A DNA stretch of 64,000 nucleotides from Mycobacterium sp. NBC_00419. GTDB lineage: Bacteria; Actinomycetota; Actinomycetes; Mycobacteriales; Mycobacteriaceae. Positions 27,258 to 28,222 of the stretch are shown piece by piece. The stretch covers positions 2,232,001 through 2,296,000 of the forward strand of contig NZ_CP107931.1 of assembly GCF_036023875.1 (NCBI RefSeq), written 5' to 3'. Under the pieces are notes generated by a model. That model made no database searches. It saw only the letters and a list, made by a program, of their open reading frames with translations, and was not told where the DNA came from. Each line of letters starts with the position of its first letter. Within the stretch, counting starts at the first letter, position 1. Position numbers and translations under genes: made by a program.

Positions 27258-28157
27258 CTACTTGAAGCCCACCGAGAAGTCGTGCCCCCACAGGCTGACA
27301 GCTGTGCTCTCCCGGGCGACCCAGCCCTGATCTTCGACTTGCAAACCCTCACAGCCGAATTCGATGTCGAAGCCACCCGGAGTCTTGATGTAGAAGGACA
27401 GCATCTTGTCATTGGTGTGCCTGCCGAGCGTCGCCGACATCTTCACCTTGCGGCGCAGCGCACGGTCCAGGCACAGGCCGACGTCGTCGGAGTTCTCGAC
27501 CTCGACCATCAGGTGCACAATGCCGGTCGGGTTGGGCATCGGCATGAAGGCCAGCGCGTGGTGGCGCGGGTTGCAGCCGTAGAACCGCAGCCAGACCGGA
27601 TCACCGTCGGCCGGGCGCCCGGCGATCTGGGGCGGCAGGCTCATCGAATCCCGCAACCGGAAGCCCAGCACATCCTGATAGAAGGCCTGCGCGGCGGCAT
27701 CGTCGTCACAGGTGAGCACGACGTGCCCAAGGCCCTGTTCGGCGGTGACGAACTTGTGCCCGTACGGGCTGACGAAGCGGCGGCCCAGGTACTGCGCACC
27801 GTGGAACGCCTCGAGAACGTTGCCGGCCGGATCGGAGAACCGGATCAGCCCCTCGACGCGTCGTTCCGACTTGTCCTCGCGAGTGCCTTCGACGAAGTCG
27901 ACACCGGCCTTGGCCAAGGTTTCCCGCAGACCCTGCAGCGCGGTCGCATCGGCGACCTCCCAGCCCGAGACCAGCAACCGGTCCTGCTCGCCGGGCACGA
28001 TCACCAGGCGGGCCGCGAAGTCGTCCATGCGCAGATAGAGAGCATCGGGGGTGGCCCCGTCGCCTTCCACCATGCCGAGAACCTTGAGCGCGAATTCACG
28101 CCAGGCCGCCACGTCGGTGGCCTCGATTCGCATGTAGCCGAGTGCCTTGATGCTCAC
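27258..28157 (-). CDS. hsaC: Extradiol dioxygenase HsaC (3,4-DHSA 2,3-dioxygenase)
   Basis: The 299-residue type I extradiol dioxygenase cleaves the catechol ring of 3,4-DHSA to 4,9-DSHA. The iron ligands are visible at the expected positions: His145 (GHVVL), His215 (HLMVE) and Glu266 (DIEFG). His200 is also kept. The start is GTG and overlaps, as GTGA, a stop that appears to be the remnant end of hsaD. The next enzyme of the pathway, HsaD, is missing upstream. Confidence 0.95.
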
Positions 28158-28222
28158 GGGTGCGCCCCTCCGAGGAAGTCGATTTGTCGAACTTGTCGAA
28201 CTCGCCGAACCGCTGCGACCGG
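28154..28222 (-). pseudogene. hsaD: Remnant of hsaD (meta-cleavage hydrolase), almost wholly deleted
   Basis: In other mycobacteria hsaD lies between hsaA and hsaC. Here the two are only 65 bases apart. Reading leftward, 28183-28154 encodes IDFLGGAHP and a TGA overlapping the hsaC GTG, which resembles the C-terminal end of HsaD and its usual GTGA coupling. Upstream of it is a tandem nine-base repeat (TTCGACAAG then TTCGACAAA). There is no start codon or alpha/beta-hydrolase motif. The identity of the tail is inferred from remembered HsaD C-termini. Confidence 0.6.

Follow-up and report, generated by a model that had tools for sequence, protein, structure and literature searches.

The hsa operon of Mycobacterium sp. 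NBC_00419 lacks hsaD, and the loss of this gene is natural and repeated across mycobacterial lineages. The genome sequences document a recurrent deletion that is accompanied, in every sampled genome carrying hsaC and lacking hsaD, by a paralogous hydrolase, HsaD2, whose catalytic residues are intact. We consider it probable that hsaD was deleted because HsaD2 can hydrolyse 4,9-DSHA, a takeover that would render hsaD dispensable. In such strains, HsaAB and HsaC would continue to make 4,9-DSHA, and HsaD2, encoded elsewhere in the genome, would cleave it towards HIP. HsaD2 would have been capable of this hydrolysis before the loss; hsaD would then have become dispensable and been deleted from the operon, its end persisting as the putative carrier of the hsaC Shine-Dalgarno site.

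The hsa operon and its hsaD remnant

The window, that is, the whole 64,000-nt stretch of Mycobacterium sp. NBC_00419 DNA analysed, belongs to a genome (G000) assembled as one contig of 5,615,436 bases. Three members of the hsa operon of the KstR regulon, hsaA, hsaB and hsaC, all score above their curated NCBIfam cut-offs in the window (Table 1). HsaD, a member of the textbook four-gene operon, is missing, its gene replaced by a 65-nt gap bearing the hsaD tail. The regulatory setting is that of the regulon, since a KstR box precedes hsaA and kstR lies close by; KstR-type boxes occur in the window at 2258, 2337, 29518 and 32798. The KstR box consensus is TNNAACNNGTTNNA, and the divergent ferredoxin-type reductase gene is, judged by its position, probably kshB. 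Because KstR, FadD3, the thiolase and KstR-type boxes are all present, the remaining cluster appears ordinary as far as examined. The assertion of a first-pass annotation that every HIP gene is intact holds for FadD3, the thiolase and the enoyl-CoA hydratase, which score above their cut-offs, but is without such support at 8327-9076, for which a Pfam search at 1e-10 returned no match.

Table 1. Features of the hsa region in the window, and the HsaD2 gene elsewhere in the same genome
Feature	Coordinates	Strand	Basis
Steroid 3-ketoacyl-CoA thiolase	2361-3524		model score above cut-off
Enoyl-CoA hydratase	6625-7434		model score above cut-off
CoA-transferase domain	7431-8330		
FadD3	15890-17455		model score above cut-off
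hsaB, flavin reductase subunit	26689..27255 (start provisional)	-	NF045630, 324 bits (cut-off 230)
hsaC, extradiol dioxygenase	27258..28157	-	NF045631, 548 bits (cut-off 450)
hsaA-hsaC gap, 65 nt, hsaD site in relatives	28158..28222	-	sequence, ORFs, locus comparison
hsaD 3'-end remnant	28163..28209	-	local alignment, score 45 vs shuffle maximum 33
GGAGG, likely hsaC Shine-Dalgarno site within hsaD tail	28167..28171	-	sequence; putative function
Tandem nine-base repeat, GTTCGACAA x2	28184..28201 (copies 28193-28201, 28184-28192)	-	sequence
hsaA, oxygenase subunit of 3-HSA monooxygenase	28223..29413	-	NF045629, 655 bits (cut-off 450)
KstR-type box, between hsaA and divergent reductase gene	29518..29531	.	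strict TNNAACNNGTTNNA match
Ferredoxin-type reductase	29559..30626	+	ORF; best NCBIfam model PaaE 238 bits, below cut-off
kstR, cholesterol regulon repressor	32877..33614	+	NF033703, 337 bits (cut-off 280)
HsaD2 of the window's genome (L085)	G000:C1:5592220-5593071	-	

The minus-strand frame of the gap reads IDFLGGAHP; its stop codon, TGA (28156-28154), shares bases with the GTG start of hsaC (28157-28155). The remnant is longer than these nine codons, because the gap aligns over the last ~45 nt of hsaD: in the 899 nt that separate hsaA from hsaC in a relative (G025, locus L007), it matches, in order, nt 852-897, the end of an intact hsaD. None of 200 mononucleotide shuffles exceeded a score of 33, compared to 45 for the real gap, and with other references (the window being L146) the gap scored 47, its 60 shuffles reaching at most 28. 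The upstream part of the remnant lies in a different frame from IDFLGGAHP. The first-pass reading of hsaA and hsaC as lying 65 nt apart without hsaD, which had been deleted leaving a tail scar, is thus borne out by the ORFs, the model scores and this alignment. An ancestral adjacency of hsaA and hsaC, named there as a finding that would speak against deletion, is contradicted by the hsaD lying between them in G025 and by the hsaD remnants in the gap. The tandem nine-base repeat noted in the same place is real, but its proposed role as the deletion joint is unsupported because the repeat is absent from the other hsaA-hsaC scars inspected. The GGAGG sits nine bases upstream of the hsaC start. 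When 44 other short-gap loci were scanned with a permissive pattern, 41 had a Shine-Dalgarno-like motif before hsaC. The end of hsaD may therefore have been retained because the hsaC Shine-Dalgarno site resides there, which would offer a simple reason for the survival of the tail.

A search of the whole one-contig genome with the HsaD model NF045632, as the first-pass annotation had advised for HsaD- or BphD-like hydrolases, gave 37 matches, none above the 400-bit cut-off; the best three score 274.8 (L085, the HsaD2 gene), 248.3 (L086) and 186.7 bits (L087). A relocated hsaD, one of the options that had been offered, is ruled out by the lack of any full-score HsaD, and substitution by another hydrolase, namely HsaD2, is the best-fitting option among them. 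L086 is an MhpC-like hydrolase in an apparent mhp-type aromatic cluster, and L087, ~17 kb from the window, adjoins a diiron-monooxygenase-like cluster (gene names by eye in both). A cluster at L001:4492-15356 (G000:C1:2209491-2220355), outside the window and ~12-23 kb before its start, combines an extradiol dioxygenase and a diiron-monooxygenase-like gene, both named by eye, with a hydrolase of the cumene type.

Recurrence and decay of hsaD in the genus

Comparison of the locus in relatives, likewise suggested at the outset, reveals that the loss recurs with different scars. Among the best 80 of 417 relatives' loci from an HsaA scan of species genomes, the hsaA-hsaC gap measures 14-139 nt in 16 and 868-962 nt in 64; the short-gap loci include Mycolicibacterium rhodesiae and all eight Mycolicibacter records. 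HsaD scores above cut-off in 155 of 198 sampled genomes of the genus. The other 43 comprise 9 without a match at 1e-60 and 34 with weaker matches only, 31 of which have HsaC above cut-off and make up the hsaC-positive, hsaD-negative set (G021 and G079, with no HsaC match, and G068, whose HsaC at 6e-110 falls below cut-off, were left out). These represent 31 of the 185 sampled genomes having HsaC above cut-off. In G021, a fragment resembling hsaD lies at the end of a contig. In the 30 of 31 loci whose gaps were read, the gap is 14-139 nt in 29 and 323 nt in G181.

An rpoB tree was built from 79 genomes, including 30 of the 31 (G183, with no rpoB match, was left out); on it, the hsaD-negative state requires seven changes, four of them forced by starred branches. 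As read from this tree, the lineages are the window's genome with G114; G020/G040/G069/G109/G152/G167; G165/G173; G066/G104/G108/G163/G185/G206, which may be the M. abscessus-chelonae group; eleven Mycolicibacter-type genomes with G088; G155 alone; and G181 alone. G114, the nearest rpoB relative of the window's genome, and the loci L005 and L006 also lack hsaD, with other scars, while relatives within the window's starred group, such as G025, have an intact hsaD between hsaA and hsaC.

The scars span a series of stages, from both hsaD ends to little beyond the hsaC Shine-Dalgarno site. G181 retains both ends in a 107-codon frame, L006/G183 keep ~42 nt of each end, and G088 matches the 3′ part in degenerate form. 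A 3′ tail is left in the window and in G020, G040, G069, G109, G152 and G167, and a fainter trace of it in G114 and L005; the G114 tail scored 20 against a shuffle value of 28 with the first references and, weakly, 31 against 27 with the second. The Mycolicibacter-type loci, the G066/G104/G108/G163/G185/G206 clade (five read), G165/G173 and G155 never yielded a remnant above shuffles. Of 46 short-gap loci in all, a set that contains the window and counts some genomes twice, 18 beat their own shuffles and 28 fail. G181, with its truncated hsaD, also encodes a third HsaD-like hydrolase, L284 (G181:C384:24988-25806; 362 bits).

The flanking genes remain under purifying selection. Between hsaD-negative pairs, dN/dS is 0.03-0.15 for hsaA (six pairs) and 0.025-0.22 for hsaC (six pairs), the 0.22 belonging to the G104/G163 pair, in which the two hsaC copies share only 71% identity. 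In these two hsaD-negative sister genomes, hsaA is 96.5% identical (L139 and L154), and their hsaC genes, judged by sequence, are two distinct alleles. A similar pattern is found in L006 (and G183/L126), where HsaA is 91% identical to that of the window and HsaC only 73%, such that the hsaC of the L006 operon seems to have been swapped for another allele. A mycobacterial-type hsaA-hsaD-hsaC operon is also found in L021, a MAG titled Bifidobacterium breve, a label that is probably wrong.

HsaD2 and its genomic context

HsaD2 denotes here the L085-type hydrolase (presence threshold, E<=1e-100); the name is borrowed from the hsaD2 placed within the C-19 steroid pathway in the accessible part of PMC6351609, and the orthology is putative. 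HsaD2 is present in all 31 hsaC-positive, hsaD-negative genomes compared to 103 of 155 hsaD-positive ones (Fisher 1.6e-5; the genomes are not independent). This signal shrinks because of kinship among the genomes: the chance of finding HsaD2 in all of seven lineages at the 66% background is about 0.06, and an independent-pairs test on the rpoB tree is not significant and cannot become so, since starred branches provide only four pairs. More telling is the retention of HsaD2 without its usual partner. HsaC2 is missing from 10 of the 31 hsaD-negative genomes, in three lineages, and all 10 keep HsaD2, whereas HsaD2 occurs in only 5 of 55 hsaD-positive genomes with a single HsaC-type gene (Fisher 1.7e-8; 6 of 56 if G161, which has HsaD2 and was left out for its below-cut-off HsaC, is counted).

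The neighbourhoods, compared over hand-chosen 15-20 kb regions, follow the same trend. HsaA2 and HsaC2 lie near HsaD2 in 9 of 10 hsaD-positive regions (nine genomes) compared to 4 of 11 hsaD-negative ones, and KshB-like matches occur in five hsaD-positive regions only. HsaC2 is ~18 kb from HsaD2 in G166 and distant in G104. In G104, G163 and G066, HsaD2 stands without its home set; that of G104 has a cutinase-type gene on one side and ribosomal-protein genes (S17, L16) on the other. At all three of these loci (L261, L262 and L263), a strict match to the KstR box consensus lies 25 nt before the aligned HsaD2 start, whereas none was found within 1.5 kb of HsaD2 at 24 other hsaD-negative and 20 hsaD-positive loci, where the best relaxed match reaches 7 of 8 positions (L259). 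Across 20 regions totalling 318,520 nt, the strict pattern occurs four times, and three of these are the boxes of the stand-alone HsaD2 genes.

In the window's genome, the 20-kb HsaD2 region contains no KstR box, and HsaA2 and HsaC2 remain beside HsaD2. The takeover in the window's own strain is therefore argued by analogy with other lineages. The home module of its HsaD2, a second hsa-like one adjoining mce-type genes (L123:4807-11252; G000:C1:5586806-5593251), comprises KstD-like, HsaC-like (367 bits) and HsaA-like (369 bits) proteins, a Baeyer-Villiger monooxygenase and HsaD2; kshA2 and kshB2, members of the C-19 steroid gene set given in the accessible part of PMC6351609 (kstD2, kstD3, kshA2, kshB2, hsaA2, hsaC2 and hsaD2), were not found in L123. 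G025 carries two HsaD2 copies (L273, L274), each with its own HsaA2/HsaC2 set.

HsaD2 is 40-44% identical to the hsaD products of relatives, leaving its fold hardly in doubt. The Ser-Asp-His triad together with Arg192 and Trp270 is present in 27 of 27 HsaD2 sequences from hsaD-negative and 20 of 20 from hsaD-positive loci (the catalytic motif pattern missed one of the 47, L257, whose His is present). R192, W270, M177, N113, N54, L158 and the triad are common to these sequences and 64 HsaD proteins, while the pocket-side positions 45, 49, 173, 209 and 244 differ between HsaD2 and HsaD in every sequence compared. Some of the positions compared derive from PMC5603573. Unlike HsaD, HsaD2 falls below the equivalog cut-off, is encoded elsewhere than between hsaA and hsaC, and forms a separate clade (SH-aLRT 100, apart from HsaD at 99). 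Convergence on HsaD residues was looked for in HsaD2 of the hsaD-negative lineages and none was seen. Between four hsaD-negative pairs, hsaD2 dN/dS is 0.04-0.11. HsaD2 probably performs 4,9-DSHA hydrolysis.

Competing explanations and known systems

The observations must be weighed against a loss of hsaD without replacement, in which ring A/B degradation would be decaying or would end at 4,9-DSHA and HsaD2 would serve, e.g., C-19 steroids. The decay of hsaD through all stages is compatible with such a loss, as are the second module of the window's genome, where HsaD2 has its own HsaC-like partner, and the assignment of hsaD2 to C-19 steroid degradation in the accessible part of PMC6351609. Purifying selection nonetheless persists on hsaA and hsaC in hsaD-negative pairs, HsaD2 persists after the loss of its own module in 10 of 31 hsaD-negative genomes, and one clade has the KstR box, all of which make an unreplaced loss unlikely. 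The first-pass expectation that the route would stop before HIP is, because of the same selection, not what the genomes suggest. That one of the other two hydrolases performs the step in the window's strain is more doubtful still, even though both genes reside in the genome and L087 is close to the window. Neither is general: HsaD2 is the sole HsaD-like match at 1e-40 in 6 of 16 hsaD-negative genomes, which rules out L086 as a general substitute, and the L086 type differs from HsaD at 177 and 208 in five of five sequences compared. L087 is disfavoured as a substitute by its closest kinship with a cumene-pathway hydrolase (2d0d, 381 bits, compared to only 136-138 for HsaD structures). An assembly error, or the mutant or engineered steroid producer suggested earlier, is scarcely credible, since the genome is a single contig and the remnant is diverged rather than cleanly cut; laboratory mutation is rejected because G114, L005, L006 and about seven lineages also lack hsaD.

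Counting against takeover by HsaD2 are its score of 275 bits against 400, the pocket-side differences, the lack of convergence on HsaD residues, the non-independence of the genome counts, the intact home module and missing KstR box in the window's genome, the alternative hydrolases at 248 and 187 bits and, in G181, the further HsaD-like protein at 362 bits. With these in the balance, we lean, less firmly than for the takeover as such, towards a broader scenario in which the hydrolase step passed to HsaD2 repeatedly and independently, some lineages then lost the home module, and in one clade the orphaned HsaD2 gene was drawn into the KstR regulon; HsaD would therefore be replaceable in nature.

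The natural absence of hsaD from 31 of 185 genomes with HsaC suggests that a catabolic step can pass to a paralogue. If so, presence/absence surveys may count hsaD-negative species as hsaD-positive via HsaD2. In the accessible part of a cholesterol-gene survey of 93 mycobacteria (PMC6429209), hsaD is not among the genes listed as missing in the M. abscessus group; if the G066/G104/G108/G163/G185/G206 clade is the M. abscessus-chelonae group, that survey may have scored the paralogue as hsaD. HsaD is a candidate target for drugs against tuberculosis (PMC5603573), and its inhibitors, if the takeover is true, need not block steroid catabolism where HsaD2 exists. A literature search, with most subscription journals outside reach, found no report of hsaD loss or HsaD2 takeover, and the name hsaD2 turned up in a single paper among those covered.

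Among known systems, the closest solved structures to HsaD2 are those of HsaD itself (NF045632; Rv3569c; PDB 2VF2, 2WUD and 7ZJT) at 236-237 bits, compared to at most 194 bits for BphD structures. The hsaD2 set is said to originate from a 2017 M. smegmatis paper, as a C-19+ cluster. In the cholate cluster of R. jostii RHA1, HsaA3/HsaC3/HsaD3 are likewise paralogous ring-cleavage genes devoted to another steroid, listed in the accessible part of PMC8399759 as their own set, where no hsaD loss is described. The hsaD2 of the C-19 set, as far as the accessible part of PMC6351609 goes, is a paralogous hydrolase beside hsaA2, hsaC2 and kstD-type genes, just as in L123; unlike in that set, HsaD2 is retained without the remaining genes in several of the hsaD-negative genomes described here.
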